Below are positions 5,392-30,700 of a stretch of DNA of 32,263 bases, piece by piece. The DNA is from Verrucomicrobiales bacterium. Lineage in GTDB: Bacteria; Verrucomicrobiota; Verrucomicrobiia; Verrucomicrobiales; DEV007. The stretch's first letter is position 1. Each line of letters opens with the position of its first letter. The notes beneath the pieces are model-generated. The model worked only from the letters and a program-made list of their open reading frames with translations, did no database searches and had not been told where the DNA came from. The stretch is from assembly GCA_022361255.1 (NCBI GenBank), contig JAKSBG010000425.1, positions 1 through 32,263 of the forward strand, given 5' to 3'. The position numbers and the translations under genes were made by a program.

Positions 5392-5853
5392 ATGGCCTCC
5401 GAAAAGTTGCAAGCTGCCATCGAAGCCCTCGATGAAGAGGAACTGGCGATGGATATGTCGTCGATGATCGACCTCGTGTTCCTGCTGCTCATTTTCTTCA
5501 TGGTCAGTTCTCACCTTATCATCGTTCAGATCGATAAGCGGGTGAAGCCGCCCACGGCGAAAAACGCGAAGGTCGCAGAGAACGCGACCGGACGTGTTGT
5601 CGTCAATGTTCTCGATGACGGGCGGGTTTTCGGGGAGGATCCGACAAACGAATTTACCACCGCAGACGCGATCACCGACTACGTCGACCAGATCCGGCTT
5701 CGAAACGAAGATGCCGGGGTTCAGCCGACCCGACTGCACCTCCGCGCCGATAAGAACGTGGACACCCGTGAAATCAAAAAGGTTGTCCAGGCGGCCGGCG
5801 AAGCAGGTGTTTTCGAAGTGATCTTCGGAAGTTACGTGGTTGATAAAGACTAA
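5392..5853 (+). CDS. exbD: ExbD/TolR family biopolymer transport protein, copy 1
   Basis: ExbD proteins have one membrane helix bearing a proton-relay aspartate and a periplasmic domain. The 153-residue protein starts with a short acidic cytoplasmic stretch, then DMSSMIDLVFLLLIFFMVSS (21-40), where Asp27 is the expected relay residue. The periplasmic part ends with the usual alpha/beta fold (LHLRADKNVDTREIKKV, then FGSYVVD). It follows exbB by 55 bp. It differs clearly from copies 2 and 3: it lacks their STLDPKE motif after the helix, so it likely forms its own subfamily and is not a recent duplicate. Confidence 0.93.
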   Translation: MASEKLQAAIEALDEEELAMDMSSMIDLVFLLLIFFMVSSHLIIVQIDKRVKPPTAKNAKVAENATGRVVVNVLDDGRVFGEDPTNEFTTADAITDYVDQIRLRNEDAGVQPTRLHLRADKNVDTREIKKVVQAAGEAGVFEVIFGSYVVDKD

Positions 5854-5874
5854 CCGGTTTCACGACCTCATTGT

Positions 5875-6327
5875 ATGGCACGCAGAAAAGCTCCCAAAGA
5901 AGAAGATCCGGAACTGGACATGTCGTCATTGATTGACGTCAGTTTCCTGCTCCTGATCTACTTCCTCGTCACCTCGACGCTTGATCCGAAAGAGGCTGAC
6001 CTCGGTATGACCATGCCGACAAACACCTCAACATCGGCTTCCGAGGTCGAGATCGACCAGATGACCGTGGAGGTGAACAGTTCCGGGCACATTGTGCTGA
6101 ACGAAGAGGTTCTCGATACCGATATCGAAAACCATGAGGTTCCCCTGCTGCTGGACCGCCTCCGCACCTATGCAGAAAGCGCCCGCCTCACGGATTCCCA
6201 ACCCATGGTCATTATCGCAGCTGATGATGCTTCGAAAGGGCAAAGATTTGTCGACGTTTTGAACGCTTTGTCGGACAAGCAGGTCGATATACGTAACGTC
6301 ACGATTACCGGGTTTAAAGAGGAGTAA
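5875..6327 (+). CDS. exbD: ExbD/TolR family biopolymer transport protein, copy 2
   Basis: The 150-residue protein has the helix segment DMSSLIDVSFLLLIYFLVTS (15-34) with relay Asp21, then STLDPKEADLGMTMP, a motif shared almost exactly with copy 3 (STLDPKEGDLNLTMP). The rest of the periplasmic domain also aligns with copy 3 (EEVLDTDIEN against DEILDTDPTN; KGQRFVDVLN against PGQRFIDVMN), so copies 2 and 3 are the closest pair and probably arose by duplication. It follows copy 1 by 21 bp. Its stop codon touches the first unit of a 22-bp-phased dyad array that separates it from copy 3. Confidence 0.92.
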   Translation: MARRKAPKEEDPELDMSSLIDVSFLLLIYFLVTSTLDPKEADLGMTMPTNTSTSASEVEIDQMTVEVNSSGHIVLNEEVLDTDIENHEVPLLLDRLRTYAESARLTDSQPMVIIAADDASKGQRFVDVLNALSDKQVDIRNVTITGFKEE

Positions 6328-6388
6328 ACCCTGTTGAATCGATGACCTAACCCTGTTTGGTCACAGACCCAACCCTGTTTGGTCCGGT
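6322..6388. repeat. Array of three dyad-symmetric units at exact 22-bp phase
   Basis: Three imperfect palindromes lie between exbD2 and exbD3, with their 3-base centres (CCT) at 6330, 6352 and 6374, exactly 22 bp apart. Unit 2 is GACCTAAC-CCT-GTTTGGTC (6344-6362) and unit 3 is GACCCAAC-CCT-GTTTGGTC (6366-6384); each arm pair matches at 7 of 8 positions. Unit 1 overlaps the exbD2 stop and is more degenerate (6 of 8). The same units recur in the same number and phase at 27613-27677. Two turns of B-DNA per unit would place all three on one face of the helix, which suits cooperative protein binding; RNA hairpins are also possible. Confidence 0.85.
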
Positions 6389-6407
6389 CCGTGGTCACAC
6401 ACAGACC

Positions 6408-6422
6408 ATGGAGAAAGAATGA
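6408..6422 (+). other. Four-codon upstream ORF overlapping exbD3 start
   Basis: ATG at 6408 opens a reading frame MEKE that stops at TGA 6420-6422, overlapping the exbD3 ATG (6419) in an ATGA. Such an overlap could couple initiation on exbD3 to the short frame. It may be coincidental. Confidence 0.3.
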
Positions 6423-6895
6423 TCAGACGCAAAATCAGGAAGCAGCAGAAAGCCGGAGAAGGGGACGCAAACAGCCTCGATATTTCTTCTCTCATTGATG
6501 TCAGTTTTCTCCTCCTGATTTACTTTTTGATCACTTCGACCCTCGATCCGAAAGAGGGCGATTTAAACCTGACGATGCCACCTGTCGGGGATAATCCCCG
6601 GTATGAATCTCCGATGATGCCGACGCCCCGCATCGTGGTGAACGCCGACGGTGTCATCTCGATGCAGGACGAGATTCTCGACACGGATCCAACCAATCGT
6701 GAGCTCATCCATCTGGAAGACCGACTCATGACCTACCGGGATGCCTATCAGGTATTCGACGCTACCGGTTCGCCTCCGATTGAACTGGAGGTGGACGATT
6801 CTGTCCCCGGGCAGCGCTTTATTGATGTGATGAACTGTCTCGCCGGAACGGAGATTCAGAACATCAGTCTCGTGAAATTCAAGACAACCGACTAA
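6419..6895 (+). CDS. exbD: ExbD/TolR family biopolymer transport protein, copy 3
   Basis: The 158-residue protein begins with a basic segment (MIRRKIRKQQK), then the helix DISSLIDVSFLLLIYFLITS (21-40) with relay Asp27, and the STLDPKE motif shared with copy 2. The insert after the motif is Pro- and Met-rich (VGDNPRYESPMMPTPR), which copy 2 lacks. The gene lies 91 bp after copy 2, a gap filled by the 22-bp-phased repeat array, and 21 bp before the large TPR gene. Three ExbD subunits in one operon suggest a mixed ExbD complex or alternative partners for one channel; this is inference. Confidence 0.92.
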   Translation: MIRRKIRKQQKAGEGDANSLDISSLIDVSFLLLIYFLITSTLDPKEGDLNLTMPPVGDNPRYESPMMPTPRIVVNADGVISMQDEILDTDPTNRELIHLEDRLMTYRDAYQVFDATGSPPIELEVDDSVPGQRFIDVMNCLAGTEIQNISLVKFKTTD

Positions 6896-6916
6896 TTACT
6901 TTCTGTTTTTGTTAGA

Positions 6917-9900
6917 ATGAAAAACCATTGGAAATCGAGGGCTCTGTCCCTTCTCGCCGCAACTGCCGTGATTCTTCCGGGGGCAAATCTGTTTGCCCAG
7001 GACGAGGAGGATGTCAGTCTCGAAGCTCTTTATCAAAAGGCCGGGGAGTTCAGTATGGGAGGCCAGTATGATGAGGCTTCCAAAACCTTTGAGCGTATGT
7101 TCGATCTCTCGGGAGGGATGGAAACGCTCTTCGAGGATTACGGTGCACAGGCCGGTGGATTCTATTTCGACTATGGAATGACTCTGCTTCCCCAGCAGCG
7201 TTGGGAAGATGCCAAAGCCGCATTCACGATCTGTGTCACGGCGAATGAAATTGCCGAGAAGGTGGAAAGTCCCATCAAGTCACAGAATGCGCGGGCAAAT
7301 CTTGCCAAATTCCAGCTTGGCTTTTGCGAAGCGCAGCTCGGAAATCCGGGCGAGGCAATCCGGCTCTACGATGAATACATCGCCTCCAACCCGCCGCCGG
7401 AAGAGTTGCAGCAGGTTTTCCCCAGCTTCAAACTTCGCTACGGCGCCGCTTTGATGAAACTGGGCCGCATCGACGAAGGAATTTCTTCGATTCAGGAACT
7501 TTTCGACGAGCGTGAGCAGCGCAACATTGCCCCGCAGTTTCTCGTCCAGGGCGTTCTGGAGCTCGGCCTCGCGTTCATCGAACAGGCGAACGCTGCAGGA
7601 ACCGATGAAGGAGCGAGGGAGAAGATTGCGGAGCGTGCGCACGACTTTCTCGACAAGAATCAGGAGTCGATTACGCTGTCACCACTCGATCAGTTCCGTT
7701 TCGGCTTTGTAGACCGGCTCCGGAAGCTGGGTTTTGAGTCGACGAAAGCGGGGCTGTATTCGCTGGCTCTTCGCTACTTCGCCTTTGCGCCGACTCTCGA
7801 GGATGTGAAAAACGACATCAATCTCGGGCTCACCCGCCTGCCTGTCGGACAAGGGATTCCGTCGCAGTATCAGGGGCTCATTGACCGCATTGCCGCCTAT
7901 GAGGAGGCAGAGGTTCATCCCGACGCGGAAACGCTACGTCTCGTCGCTACTTGTTACGAGCGGATGGGGAACCTACGGGCAGCCCGCGTCGTTTACTGGA
8001 ACCTCGTTGAGAATGTCGAAATGCCGGATGAAAAGCGCGGCGAAATTCTCCACGAGGCAGCGAGACTTTCCTCTCTGATTGCCGATTTCTCCGCAGCGCA
8101 ATACTTCGGAGAAAAATTCATGGCGGAGATGCCGGAGGATCATACTCTCCGGAACAACGTTTCGACTTTCATGTTGCAGTCCCTGTTTACTTCGGGGCTC
8201 TACGACGAAGTCATTCGGATTTCCGAGCGCGTTCGTGATCGGTATGAGGTGGGCGACGCCCAGCGGGAGCTGGCCGATTCGCTTTACCCGCTGGCTCTGT
8301 ATTCCACCGGTCAACATGAGGAGGCGACTGAGCCCTTTGCAGAATATGTGAAGGGTTACCCCGAGGGGGGGAACCGCGAGATTGTGATGTTCCATCGCGG
8401 ATCCAATTCGCTAATCCGTGGAAAAATGCGCGAGGCGGCTACGCAGTATGAGGAATTTCTCGAAGCGTTTCCTGAATCAGAGCGTTTTCTCGACAATGCG
8501 CTTGCTGATCTTTCCATCGCCCGCTTTAACCTCGAGGATTACCCCGCTGCTGTGGAAGCAGCCGATCAGTTGGTCGAAAAGCGTCCGGAGTCTATTCAGC
8601 TGGGTAGAACGCTCAACATCAAAGGGGATTCCTACGCTGTCATGGCCAGTGCTTTGAACCAGAAAGAGCAGGAGGAACAGCGCACCGAGTGGGAGAAGGA
8701 ATCACTCGATGCCTATCTTGCCGCTTTCGATGCCGCGAAGAAATCCCGGGCCAGTGATCCTGACCGTGACGATTTTCACAAGGTTGTCGGAGCAGAGGCA
8801 CTTTGGAAGTCCGCAGATATTTACTATACCGAAGGAGCGCAGGAGGGCGGATACGAAGGGGAAGGCAAAGCCAAGATTGATAAAGGGCTCGCGCTTTACG
8901 ACACCTTCTTTCCCGACTATGCGGAAACCCCGTGGGAGCCTCAGATTTCTGTTTTCTCCCTTGAGCACCTCGAAGCTGCCGGACGCGGTGAGGAGGGGCT
9001 GACACAAGTGGAGAAAATGGTGCTTCTTCTCGGTAACAAACCGCCGGAGGAACAGGACCTCACTCTGCTGCGTCAGGCGATTGGATCCTACGCGGAAGCA
9101 TCCGTCCGTATCCGCGGTGTCGAGAAAACTGTTGCGACTCTCGACGATTTTCCCGGAATCGATCCGGCGAATCAGGCCCTCCTGACCTGGTTGAAGATTC
9201 AGCAGGTGATTGTTCTCCAGCAGGCACAGGGCAAGATGGAAAAAGACTCTCCCGAATTCGCCAAGGCGGAGAGTCAGATCGCGCAGATTTTCGAAGATCT
9301 CAAGGGCTTCGAAATCAAGAATCTTTCCGAGTTTGCTCTGCGGGAAATCGGTCGCTACTTCGCGGGGACGGACAACCCTTTCCTCGCAGTTCCCTACTTC
9401 GAGGAATTGCTCGCACGGACGAATCCGGAAGCCGAGCAATTCAAGGCACTGGCTGAGATGGAACTGGGTAAAATCGAGGCTCGTTCCGGAGATCCCGCCA
9501 AGGTGCAGAGTGCTCGCGAGCGTTTCCGTCGTATCATCGCCAATCCGGGTGATGACAAGACGCTTATTGCTCCGGCGACTCTGAATCTCGCTCTTCTCCA
9601 CATCAAGAACAAGGAGTGGAAGGACGCTCTCGAGCCGCTCAAGACGATCAACGAAACGAAGCGGTTTTTCTCGAAGGAGAAATCCAAACGTGCCGAAGCC
9701 GGTTTTCTTCTCGGAACCGTTTTCGATGAATTAGGTGATCCGGCAAATGCAAACCGCGCTTACGTTGCCCTCATGGGAGCCTACCCGAGCGAGGCTGACT
9801 GGGTCACTCAGGCATGGGAACGCTACATCCCGAACAGTATTTCTGACATCGAGAAAATGCCGACCGGCACACCCGAGGAACAGGCCGCTAAACGGCAACG

Positions 9901-10090
9901 CGAGCTGGCGCTCTACCGACTCACGAAGAAGTATCTCTACACCTGGCAGAACTGGACGGATGAAATTGCTCCCTCCGGTGCTCTCCGTCGCCTCCGCCGC
10001 GACATTGAAACCATGAAGACCGACTTGCGCATCACTCCGGAAGAGGAGCAGATGATTCTTCAGCAGTTGAACATCGCTCCGGAGGCATAA
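6917..10090 (+). CDS. Large secreted tetratricopeptide-repeat protein
   Basis: The 1057-residue product starts with a signal peptide (to about residue 27, NLFAQ) and is almost entirely alpha-helical repeats of TPR type: for example YQKAGEFSMGGQYDEASKTF near 39, AKAAFTICVTANEI, FGEKFMAEMPEDHTLRNNV, and REAATQYEEFLEAFPESERF, each with the small-residue and Tyr/Phe pattern of TPR helices. Proteins of this kind are scaffolds for protein contacts. It sits 21 bp behind exbD3 in the operon and would be periplasmic, where ExbD domains project, so it is a good candidate for a partner or load of the ExbB/ExbD motor. No enzyme motif was found. Confidence 0.85.
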   Translation: MKNHWKSRALSLLAATAVILPGANLFAQDEEDVSLEALYQKAGEFSMGGQYDEASKTFERMFDLSGGMETLFEDYGAQAGGFYFDYGMTLLPQQRWEDAKAAFTICVTANEIAEKVESPIKSQNARANLAKFQLGFCEAQLGNPGEAIRLYDEYIASNPPPEELQQVFPSFKLRYGAALMKLGRIDEGISSIQELFDEREQRNIAPQFLVQGVLELGLAFIEQANAAGTDEGAREKIAERAHDFLDKNQESITLSPLDQFRFGFVDRLRKLGFESTKAGLYSLALRYFAFAPTLEDVKNDINLGLTRLPVGQGIPSQYQGLIDRIAAYEEAEVHPDAETLRLVATCYERMGNLRAARVVYWNLVENVEMPDEKRGEILHEAARLSSLIADFSAAQYFGEKFMAEMPEDHTLRNNVSTFMLQSLFTSGLYDEVIRISERVRDRYEVGDAQRELADSLYPLALYSTGQHEEATEPFAEYVKGYPEGGNREIVMFHRGSNSLIRGKMREAATQYEEFLEAFPESERFLDNALADLSIARFNLEDYPAAVEAADQLVEKRPESIQLGRTLNIKGDSYAVMASALNQKEQEEQRTEWEKESLDAYLAAFDAAKKSRASDPDRDDFHKVVGAEALWKSADIYYTEGAQEGGYEGEGKAKIDKGLALYDTFFPDYAETPWEPQISVFSLEHLEAAGRGEEGLTQVEKMVLLLGNKPPEEQDLTLLRQAIGSYAEASVRIRGVEKTVATLDDFPGIDPANQALLTWLKIQQVIVLQQAQGKMEKDSPEFAKAESQIAQIFEDLKGFEIKNLSEFALREIGRYFAGTDNPFLAVPYFEELLARTNPEAEQFKALAEMELGKIEARSGDPAKVQSARERFRRIIANPGDDKTLIAPATLNLALLHIKNKEWKDALEPLKTINETKRFFSKEKSKRAEAGFLLGTVFDELGDPANANRAYVALMGAYPSEADWVTQAWERYIPNSISDIEKMPTGTPEEQAAKRQRELALYRLTKKYLYTWQNWTDEIAPSGALRRLRRDIETMKTDLRITPEEEQMILQQLNIAPEA

Positions 10091-26026: not shown

Positions 26027-27349
26027 ATGCCCTCAGCTCTTTCCTACGAAAAAGTTTCTTCGCAAAATTCCGTGAAATCCGACTCCAGATTCGGGCTCTA
26101 CTCGGATATGGCATCCCGTTTTGGCACGCCCTTTTACCTCTACGACGCGGAGATGCTGAAGAGACAGGCAAATACGCTACGCTCGCTCCTTCCTGCAGAC
26201 GCAAAGTCTCGCATACTGTATTCTTTCAAATCAAATCCCAATCCGATTGTAGCCGGCCAGTTGAAAAATTACGGATGCCGGGCAGATCTGACGTCGCCCG
26301 GTGAAATTGAGGCAGCGCGCGAAGCGGGATTTGATTTCGGAAGCGCGCTCTACGGGGGGCCAGGTAAGAGCGAGGAGGAGTTGGTTTTCGCGATATCTGA
26401 GGGAATTCGGTATTTCTCGATCGAGTCGATTCACGATCTTTCGGCCCTGCGAGAGGCTTCTGTGAAATCAGGGCAGCCGGTAAAAGCACTTCTCCGGATC
26501 AATCCCGAAGAAGCTCCCAAGGCGAAACTTGCTATGTCCGGCGTTGCGAGCCAGTTCGGATTCGAGGAAATCGACCTGCACGAGAGCGGTGATGAAATCA
26601 TGTCAAAGGCGGGCGACTCCGTTTCTGTTGTCGGTATTCACATTTACTGGGGAACTCAGATTGGCGAAGCAGAGGCTCTTATGGCCTGTTTCGAAAAAAC
26701 GGTTCAAATCGCGGAAGAGATCAGCGAAAAGCTCGGTTTCCCGCTGGAGGTGCTCAACTTAGGGGGCGGGTTCCCCTGGCCCTACGCGACAAAGGGCGAA
26801 GGCAGCGATCTTTCTTCCTTGAAAGACGGTTTGGCCCGGCTGCAGGCTGGTGCCGGATCAGCAAAGTCTGCGGAATGGTGGTTCGAATCGGGACGGTTTC
26901 TCTCAGCCTCTTCCGGAACTCTCGTGGCGAGAGTGATGGAGGTGAAAAAATCCAAGGACCGGGAATTTCTCATCCTCGATACCGGCATTCATCACCTTGG
27001 AGGAATGTCCGGGCTGGGTAGAATTCCCCGATTCTCCATCGATCTCGAGGTTCCCCCCTCGCGTCGCAGCAACGAGGAAATGCAGGTCGAAGTCGTTGGA
27101 CAACTCTGCACTCCGCTGGACTGCATCGGACGCCGCATCAAGCTTCCGAAGGTGGAACCGGGCGATCTCGTCGCAGTCCCGAATACGGGAGCCTACGGGC
27201 CAACCGCCAGTGTTCTCGGATTCCTGAGCCGGCCTACACCTGTAGAAATTCTTCACCGGGGAGGAGACGTGATTTCCTCCAACCGTCTGCGCGGCGGTCA
27301 CGAAATGTTTCAACCCAATCACCACCATCCACCGCATGCAACTCGCTGA
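26027..27349 (+). CDS. PLP-dependent amino acid decarboxylase (ornithine/DAP/arginine decarboxylase 2 family)
   Basis: The 440-residue protein is a fold III PLP enzyme. Visible features are the cofactor lysine Lys68 in YSFKSNPNP, His205 in GIHIYWGTQ, the glycine loop LGGGFPW (245-251), ESGR (287-290), Cys361 in LCTPLDCIGR contributing to the active site, and GAY (388-390). It resembles the subgroup that works with a carrier protein, such as the exosortase A-associated decarboxylases and BtrK of butirosin biosynthesis, which decarboxylates a glutamyl thioester on the ACP BtrI. This fits the overlapping ACP gene (27336-27349). No exosortase is seen. The His-rich C-terminus lies in the overlap. 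Start at ATG 26027 has no Shine-Dalgarno. Confidence 0.88.
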   Translation: MPSALSYEKVSSQNSVKSDSRFGLYSDMASRFGTPFYLYDAEMLKRQANTLRSLLPADAKSRILYSFKSNPNPIVAGQLKNYGCRADLTSPGEIEAAREAGFDFGSALYGGPGKSEEELVFAISEGIRYFSIESIHDLSALREASVKSGQPVKALLRINPEEAPKAKLAMSGVASQFGFEEIDLHESGDEIMSKAGDSVSVVGIHIYWGTQIGEAEALMACFEKTVQIAEEISEKLGFPLEVLNLGGGFPWPYATKGEGSDLSSLKDGLARLQAGAGSAKSAEWWFESGRFLSASSGTLVARVMEVKKSKDREFLILDTGIHHLGGMSGLGRIPRFSIDLEVPPSRRSNEEMQVEVVGQLCTPLDCIGRRIKLPKVEPGDLVAVPNTGAYGPTASVLGFLSRPTPVEILHRGGDVISSNRLRGGHEMFQPNHHHPPHATR

Positions 27350-27587
27350 ATCTCTCACAGACGTTGAAGCCGTCGTCCGGCCTCATCTCAAATTTCTCGA
27401 AGCCGATGCTACACTGGGAGCCGAAGACAACCTCGGCGAAGCCGGGCTCGACTCCATGGCTTCCATTGATCTGCTTCTCGATCTCGAAGACCGCTTTGAT
27501 GTGACCAGTCAGGATGATCTGCTCACGGAGAATTCTTTCGCCACATTGAGTGAAATCGCGAAGCTCATTGAGCAGTCGCGAGATTAA
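27336..27587 (+). CDS. Acyl carrier protein
   Basis: The 83-residue protein has the phosphopantetheine attachment motif GLDSM with Ser40, preceded by the acidic NLGEAGL loop and followed by helix II (ASIDLLLDLEDRFD), and ends with the usual helix IV (LSEIAKLIEQ). The N-terminal part is more hydrophobic than in fatty-acid ACPs, suggesting a specialised carrier. It overlaps the decarboxylase gene by 14 bp, so the two are co-expressed. The inferred role is carrying the amino acid or acyl group on which the decarboxylase acts. A loading ligase is not in the window. Confidence 0.9.
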   Translation: MQLAESLTDVEAVVRPHLKFLEADATLGAEDNLGEAGLDSMASIDLLLDLEDRFDVTSQDDLLTENSFATLSEIAKLIEQSRD

Positions 27588-27612: not shown

Positions 27613-27677
27613 TTGAGCAAACAGGGTTAGGTCAAGAATCCAACAGGGTTAGGTGTCGGATTGTACCCTGTTTGATT
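27613..27677. repeat. Second array of three dyad units at exact 22-bp phase
   Basis: Between the ACP and cassette protein A genes, 3-base centres lie at 27623 (AGG), 27645 (AGG) and 27667 (CCT), exactly 22 bp apart, as in the array at 6322-6388. Unit 1 reads TTGAGCAAAC-AGG-GTTAGGTCAA (27613-27635), a 10-bp dyad with two mismatches; units 2 and 3 are more degenerate. The third unit is in the opposite orientation, yet phase is kept. Read on the minus strand, AACCCTGTTG-GATTCTTGACC here matches the unit around 6327-6347 closely. Confidence 0.85.
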
Positions 27678-27762: not shown

Positions 27763-30700
27763 GTGAAAGCGAGACGATTACATCATCGGTTCGAGTTTCA
27801 GAATCGCCGGGGAGTTGCATTGCTGACGGTCCTCTCGATTGTCACTCTCATTACGATCCTGGTTCTCAGCCTTTTTGCGTTGTCTGTCAGTGAACGGGAA
27901 TCCTCTCATCTTTACAGCGTGGGGATAGAGGCAGAGCATGTGGCTGATTCTGCGATCAATGTCGCGATTTCTCAAATTCGGTCCGCGACTTCGCATCCGG
28001 ATAGATTGTGGGCGAGTCAGCCCGGCGCGATCCGCACCTACGGAGAGGAAGGGCAGTTTGCCAGAGGGTTCAAGCTGTATTCGGATGACCTTCTACAGAT
28101 CCCCGATGACGAGCTCTGGTTTGTGGAAGAGGACCAGGTTGATTTGGAGGATTGGGTGTCCTTTCCCTCTCATTTTGTTGATCTCAACGAGCCTGTGATC
28201 CGAAGGAAGAAAGCATACTTCCCGATAGTCGATCCCTCTGCCCGTGATGTGATGAAAGTGGAAGGATTCTCTTTTTCCAAAGAGGATGTTACTCCGGGAA
28301 GAATGGAGAAGGCTTTGCAGAAAGCTAAGAGTGAAACACTTCCGATGCCGGTGCGATGGATGTATCAGCTTGCAGATGGGACGCTGGGCACTCTGGATGA
28401 AGAAAACGAATTTGTCGTTAAGTGGGTGGAGGATGACGAGGTGAAGGTGAAGCAGGGGCTGGCGACAGAGGATAATCCAATCGTCGCGCGAATGGCATTC
28501 TGGACCGACGATGAAACCGCTAAGATCAATATCAACACGGCATCTGAGCCCACTTTCTGGGATACCCCGCGCGCGTCTGCGAGGCCGGGGCAGGGCGAAG
28601 GCGACGGTCAGGGGGAATTTGAAGATCGGCAATACGGATACTCACAACCCACGATCCGCGAGTACAACCGCTTTCCCGGTCACCCCGCTCAAACAGCGCT
28701 GAGTACGGTGTTTTTTCCTGAGAAGGTGCTGGATCGGGACGAGAAGAAGATCATTATAGATGCGGCTCCCCAAATGAAGTGGGGTGGCTCAATGGCGGCT
28801 CGCTGGCCCTTTCACAGAGCAGAGGCTCCACCGGAGGATCACTCGCGACTTTTCCCTAGCGTTGATGAGTATATTTTTGATCAGAATCGGCAGGAAATCC
28901 CTCTCGGGAGTATTGCAGAAAGTGGATATACTTCGGGAGATTTGGTAGAGCGATCCCGCTTTTTTCTGACTTCCTCCAGCAGGGCTCCTGAGCTCAACGC
29001 ATTTAATCGCCCACGCGTTTCAATTTGGCCCACGCACGCCGAATTGGAGACGGAGAAAGGTGAGCATCGTTCCCCGTTTGATAAGTTAATCCGATTCTGC
29101 TCATCGTATGGGCCGGGACTGGATGAAGATCGGTATCACTATTCTTTTCAAAGATTGGACAGTGACAGCGCTACAACTGACTTCGAAGATATCGATCGAA
29201 ATCAGAAGATTTATGAGTATCTGCGAAAGCAGACCGAACTGCCCATTCCGGGATATGGAGGCACCTTTCAGAATAAATGGGAGGAAGACGCAGATCAGGT
29301 TCTCACTCAGATTTTCGACTACATTAGATCGACGAATCTTTACGATGACAATCTGGAACCTCTATACTACGAGGAGAAGGAGTGGTTGGAATCAGGGCTG
29401 GGTGCTCAGTTTACGGACGGACGACGTCAGGCAAAGAAAAAAGGGCAGGATATCGATGGATCTTTCACCAGTTTTCCAGGCCACGGGCAGGTCATTCCGC
29501 TGGAAATAGCTGATACCGAAACGAGAGGATTGGGTCGGTTTTATACCGTTTCAGAGGTGGGGTTCATACTGATTTGTTGCGGAGATGCGGGCGGGGCACA
29601 CCCAAAGGATCCGGAGTTGCCTCAGTATCCTGACGGAGTTTTGAAGAGTAACGTCCCCGGAAATGAGGCGGGAAAAAATCGAACGTTGCCCCGGAAACTG
29701 GACTGGAGAACTAGAGAGCGTTGTCTCCAGGGAATGTTGATTTTTGAACTTTTCTCCCCGTCTCAGGGATGGACCCAGCTCAACGATGACATGACCATGC
29801 GGGTGGAATTTGAGAGGGGATTTACGATCGACGGAAGTCCTGTTTCATTTCCTGCCGTTAAGAAATATGACTGGAAGAGCACAGGCGATGCCTACACGGG
29901 AGGCGGATCGAGGCGTGGTGCGAGAATTGGAACGGTCGGCGAAAATCAGTTCTCTTCCATGTGGGGAGGCACCGTGCCGTTCTGGTCCCTGACAAAATAT
30001 CGTCTCGCACCTCCGTTGGAACATTTTGAGCCGGATGGGGGATTGGAGGGCAATCGTAGGAACCGGTCAGATCAGGCGCGCCGGGTTTATCCATTTATTA
30101 GTGTGCCGTTCATTGTGAATGGAGAGGACAATCTCATGCGATTCGGAGGAGGAGAATTTAAGCTGTCGATTTATTCGGGAACGACACATAGTCAGATACC
30201 ATTGAAAGCTGATGACGAGACTCTCGTTCAATCGTTTCATTTTCGGTTTCCGGCAACGATTCTCCCGGTGCCGGAACTGGCAAAGCACAAGGGGATTCGT
30301 CGCCCGCGGCACGAGCCGACAAAGAATGAAGACGATAGCTACAACTACGAGCGGCCCTACGATTATAACGAAAGAGGATATCCCATCAGTTCGCGGGACG
30401 GCGTGATCCACCCGTCATACTACTGGACACTCAGTCGGAGGGGATGCGGTGTCGGCAATGAGGCTCATGGTCATGCCAACTGGGGACGGTGGGGCACGAG
30501 TAGATTGGATTCCTCTTTTGAAAGATTTTCCGGAAGCCAGCGGGGGCGACTTTGCGAGTGGGGGCGCGACTGGAGAACGATGTTTATTCAACATCGTGAG
30601 GGGAACGGCTATAACCCAAAGCGGGGGGCGGATGTCGTGCGAACACTCGTGCCCTCACATGGAGACTACCGGCTGATTGCGGCGCAAAAAGAGGTGCCGA

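Follow-up and report, generated by a model that had tools for sequence, protein, structure and literature searches.

What do three evenly phased palindromes do in the gap between an acyl-carrier-protein-like gene and the gene of a cassette protein? The window, that is, the whole stretch of 32,263 nucleotides analysed, is contig C350 of G000, a Verrucomicrobiales draft genome of 5.85 Mb in 548 contigs, and it carries two phased arrays, each with three units at an exact pitch of 22 bp. Array 2, whose 63-bp footprint (27615-27677, no strand assigned) was taken from the logo, starts about 28 bp past the stop codon of the acyl-carrier-protein-like (PP-binding) gene (27336-27587, plus strand) and lies upstream of the gene encoding Verru_Chthon cassette protein A (TIGR02600; 27685-31974, plus strand), the true start of which is likely near 27820. 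Its first two cores, both AACAGGGTT, are on the minus strand at 27620-27628 and 27642-27650, centred on 27624 and 27646; the third, TACCCTGTT, is on the plus strand at 27664-27672, centred on 27668, inverted and with one mismatch. Array 1 (6322-6384, plus strand) has its cores at 6327-6335, 6349-6357 and 6371-6379, overlaps the stop codon of an ExbD/TolR gene (5875-6327, plus strand) and precedes a second one (6419-6895, plus strand). Three ExbD/TolR genes in succession, followed by a large TPR protein, occupy positions 5392-10090, a cluster that is conserved genus-wide. A preliminary description of array 2 recognised the 22-bp pitch as well as a unit that is inverted yet in phase, and both observations stand; the centres it gave, 27623, 27645 and 27667, are one base low. 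The first unit, described there as a 10-bp dyad, is instead a pseudo-dyad whose 3-bp centre, CCT/AGG, breaks the symmetry.

Alignment of 51 arrays defines the unit as a 19-bp pseudo-palindrome, GACCNAAC(CCT/AGG)GTTNGGTC. Units of an array are exactly 22 bp apart, the 3-bp gaps separating the dyads are nearly free of constraint, and conservation ends about 5 bp beyond the outer cores, with GACC..GGTC. The paired-core pattern matches the genome 677 times, versus 4 times for a reversed control, and the 12-mer TAACCCTGTTTG matches 19 times versus none. Weight-matrix scoring of 710 kb yields 56 arrays and shuffled sequence yields none; the scores are bimodal, 2% of arrays extend to an extra unit at -22 and 2% to one at +66, and strong units that belong to no array are at chance level (9 versus 9 in the shuffled control). 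The 1.29 Mb surveyed, which is 22% of one draft genome, holds 106 arrays, or about 82 per Mb, a density that extrapolates to about 480 arrays in G000; of the 106, 93 have three units, 11 two and 2 four. The identical count and spacing of the two arrays of the window, to which the preliminary description drew attention, is therefore a genome-wide rule; random unit number or phase, the outcome it named as speaking against its reading, was looked for genome-wide, and the copies are random in neither. It also proposed that symmetry and phase are kept and strand is not. This is borne out by orthologous arrays, between which orientation flips, and every orientation combination of cores is found, but orientation is not fully free, as CCT-then-AGG neighbours are under-represented (classes 39/28/16/10). 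At the spacer centre, CATCG/CGATG is the top 5-mer in arrays of G000 (12 of 186; the next has 6), and the dyad consensus does not account for it. A limited search of the open-access literature found no description of the array motif.

Along the chromosome the arrays are over-dispersed, the non-random placement looked for in matS-, NBS- or SBS-like sites. No pair lies closer than 4 kb in the first 710 kb, and among the 55 inter-array intervals of the 1.29 Mb the minimum is 3,855 bp, none being below 3 kb and one below 4 kb. Uniform placement on the same contigs predicts 15.2 intervals below 3 kb and random intergenic placement 25.3, never fewer than 14 in 3,000 simulations; the coefficient of variation of the intervals is 0.46 versus 0.85. 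Because the test is conditional on the number of arrays per contig, picking array-bearing contigs creates no over-dispersion, and the intervals lost at contig ends are the long ones. In G009, a member of an independent three-unit lineage, 40 array loci over 248 kb hold a single additional array against an expectation of at least 9 (P ~0.001). Exceptions are spacings of 2.6 kb in G012 and 0.55 kb in G009. Density is about one array per 13 kb in G000 and, by the same pattern, much sparser in G012. Since density differs between species, one fixed domain size does not hold for all of them.

Do the arrays control the genes beside them? They might be operators of a global transcription factor, two or three dimers of which bind cooperatively and thereby regulate the adjacent genes; cooperatively spaced phased palindromes are typical of operators, and some arrays lie no more than 50 bp from a start codon. 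Yet divergent gaps are depleted of arrays, with 14 where 25.2 are expected from usable length, while convergent gaps hold an excess (19 versus 12.3) and co-directional gaps 51 versus 46.5, these gap classes being approximate, with gene calls from a simple codon-usage ORF finder. Moreover, 16 of the 106 arrays lie inside predicted genes, and a minimum spacing of about 4 kb is unexpected for a regulon. Nor do the neighbours have a common function. Flanking genes display no clear family enrichment, sulfatases, the biggest group, accounting for 9 of 190 flanking genes and 22 of 758 other genes, so that neither promoter enrichment nor a coherent regulon is seen, and we regard operators as an unlikely explanation. 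Both arrays of the window precede an envelope-protein gene, as the preliminary description remarked, and this is not a general rule; the association with envelope genes or with a shared downstream function was rejected given the flanking genes, and arrays also occur in dxr, rsmB, a chromate transporter gene and convergent gaps. The notion that most in-gene arrays are ORF artefacts was dropped after checks with Pfam, dxr and rsmB. At least one predicted in-gene array (L040) may sit just 5' of the true start codon. Spacing that follows DNA length, avoidance of divergent promoter regions and retention inside unrelated genes all make it appear that the sites work for the chromosome and not for particular genes.

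The arrays kept inside genes allow their history to be followed. Orthologous arrays are found within the coding sequences of dxr, rsmB and the chromate transporter. In G000 the dxr array (contig C316; gene at L240:15306-16469, minus strand) encodes the peptide KQGCLYDPTGL. A two-unit site occupies the same position in most of the genus with no change of length; of the third unit, G000 has all, G002 nearly all and the other species nothing, and its origin involved no indel. When codons in conserved dxr columns are ranked by synonymous conservation for their own amino acid, GGG, TTG and GAT of the array come first, GGT second, and CTC and GAC third; judged by such comparisons, codon choice in dxr is constrained by the genus-wide DNA motif. 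In rsmB, many species have a two-unit array, to which G000 has added a third unit via a 30-nt in-frame insertion, and G025, of the other three-unit lineage, has gained a unit independently through a different insertion. In the chromate transporter gene, G026 has a two-unit array and G000 a three-unit one, accompanied by a 12-nt in-frame insertion. Intergenic arrays common to several species, at pyrF/leuB, nusG/rplK, dhaK/dhaL and a small ORF, keep their position, whereas their spacers differ in sequence and their cores in orientation. Many others are lineage-specific, array 1 included, which is common to the sister species G002 at the orthologous site (L066) and absent in G026 and the other species where the exbD2/exbD3 gap was recovered. 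Array 2 was not found near the decarboxylase in relatives, among which the closest has a contig that stops before the site (L126) and others differ in gene order. Comparison across the genus shows the arrays to be under selection at the DNA level, even inside genes. G030 yields no match to the genus motif; at the place of the rsmB array, its rsmB (L330) carries a direct repeat of 21 bp, TTGTACCCTATTGA, which may represent divergence of the motif or of its spacing.

The number of units is a trait of lineages. Most sister species have two, and three are found in G000 and its sister G002 and, separately, in the G009/G025 lineage. A tree of dxr, rsmB and TPR, in which several deep nodes are weakly supported, nests G000 and G002 among two-unit species and places G009/G025 as a separate lineage. 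The triad-to-pair ratio is 0.44-0.60 in G000, G002, G009 and G025, at most 0.07 in most other well-populated species, and intermediate in G007, G024 and G029. All 15 arrays of G012 have exactly two units, as do 10 of 11 in a 217-kb sample of G026. G029 departs from the fixed two- and three-unit species in having some longer arrays, with about six units at the 22-bp pitch (G029:C724:6080-6220, L067:2873-2991). Four units were counted in both arrays seen in JAOFXR (isolate AH-707-L10; L076:7686, L092:1547), which may be a four-unit species.

How far does the motif extend? Among 57 genomes the array pattern is present throughout one Verrucomicrobiales genus, with one single match, at the one-mismatch level, elsewhere. 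An exact-triad scan of a collection of 84,980 species returned matches almost only in Verrucomicrobiales genomes; the few matches elsewhere, for example in Prevotella, Bacteroides, Chloroflexi and Saprospiraceae bins, mostly belong to tandem repeats whose spacers are nearly identical, which sets them apart from the phased arrays analysed here. Pattern counts understate low-copy species because some use core variants such as AACCCGGTT, and on this ground we rejected the view that these species are nearly array-free. The variants AACCCGGTT and AACCGGGTT of JAEUHH (L102:6211-6320, L064:4841-4893) suggest drift of the recognised sequence inside the genus.

Sites tied to DNA length and not to genes, regularly spaced, in coding and non-coding DNA alike, could also be marks for a process that tracks or imports DNA (Chi-like, uptake-sequence-like or for self-recognition), one being needed per stretch of DNA. 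In keeping with this, two exact-pattern scans of 2.9 million viral contigs, one for each array pattern, gave no match, although the absence may only mean that phages of this host are missing from the contigs. The known signals of the Chi and uptake kinds are short elements that occur singly and have an orientation, whereas symmetric units in phase and in a fixed number suggest a protein assembly that stays in place. We consider such marks rather improbable.

Mobile or formerly mobile repeats (REP/BIME, MITE), their spacing accounted for by target immunity, would fit hundreds of chiefly intergenic copies with lineage-specific turnover and a minimum spacing. However, the copies betray no common ancestry: the best pairwise identity outside the cores is 0.72, with column-shuffled maxima of 0.69-0.75, and hence likeness is not in excess. 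REP/BIME and REPIN families carry GTAG or CGTC tags (PMC3733652), and neither a fixed terminal tag of this type nor any other conserved flanking tag is seen in the aligned arrays. The in-place origin without an indel and the synonymous-site conservation in dxr, and a unit number that is lineage-wide, likewise speak against mobility, which we judge very improbable; inert mobile repeats, the second outcome that the preliminary description set against its reading, thus did not hold. Tandem Repeats Finder reported nothing at the array site, and, as opposed to tandem repeats or CRISPR, unit number is nearly fixed at three and the sequence between units is weakly conserved. Finally, RNA structures, either terminators or mRNA stabilisers, are suggested by complementary adjacent half-sites and by the many arrays that follow an upstream stop codon (median distance 15 bp), but there is hardly any chance that they are the explanation, since half-sites covary neither inside spacers nor across the core, half-site symmetry is not above shuffled at any position, the window has no match to an Rfam family, most neighbouring units (116 of 186) have the same orientation, so that the extended stem is broken, and arrays lie inside genes and in divergent gaps as well.

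What, then, are the arrays for? We put at about even the chance that each is a composite binding site of a putative sequence-specific DNA-binding protein whose dimers sit in phase, with a job that is chromosome-wide and not the control of neighbouring promoters; protein binding, assembly of adjacent dimers and the chromosome-level role are all inferred from sequence. One putative dimer would occupy each 19-bp dyad, and two dimers in most species, or three in G000, would be aligned on one face of the helix by the 22-bp pitch, which is two turns. The sites would be anchors or boundaries of a nucleoid-organising system that needs one per ~5-15 kb. That separate loci went from two units to three would best be put down to a change in the trans-acting factor, followed by adaptation site by site. 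The fuller proposal is more tentative, and we hold it at somewhat below even chance: a chromosome-organising system specific to the genus would cover the genome with composite sites separated by ~4 kb or more. The number of phased dyads per site would be fixed for each lineage and dictated in trans, with more than one switch between two and three, and individual sites would have adapted where they lay, those within protein-coding genes included. The chromosome-level role may be nucleoid anchoring, domain boundaries or a tracking-type mark.

If the proposal is true, the arrays are direct sequence footprints that a new DNA-binding system of chromosome scale has left in a major group of uncultured bacteria. 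The lineage-wide change between two and three units, together with in-place evolution inside genes, would then amount to a natural experiment in which hundreds of sites track a change in their protein, and the minimum spacing would make it testable whether sequence-encoded anchor points tile bacterial chromosomes every ~10 kb.

Several known systems resemble the arrays in part. The sites of matS/MatP, the Noc-binding and SlmA-binding sites and parS are palindromic, dispersed and strand-independent, and are bound by a dedicated dimeric protein. The arrays share the first three properties, and a bound protein would be the fourth; those sites are mainly single palindromes, whereas the arrays consist of two or three phased dyads, come in hundreds of copies, keep a minimum distance from one another and have a number of units that is fixed by lineage. 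REP/BIME elements and REPINs are also short, palindromic, of high copy number, mainly extragenic, often paired and sometimes inside genes, but the arrays differ from them in the missing GTAG/CGTC tag and copy ancestry, in the constant 22-bp phase and in DNA-level selection at orthologous sites. By analogy, the architecture may resemble that of cooperative multi-dimer operators, such as lambda OR1-OR3 and the Lrp-, BldC- or MraZ-type arrays, in which a few phased sites receive adjacent dimers. These are located at the promoters they regulate, whereas the present arrays, as far as the analogy can be pressed, stand apart in being hundreds of sites that are depleted at divergent promoters.
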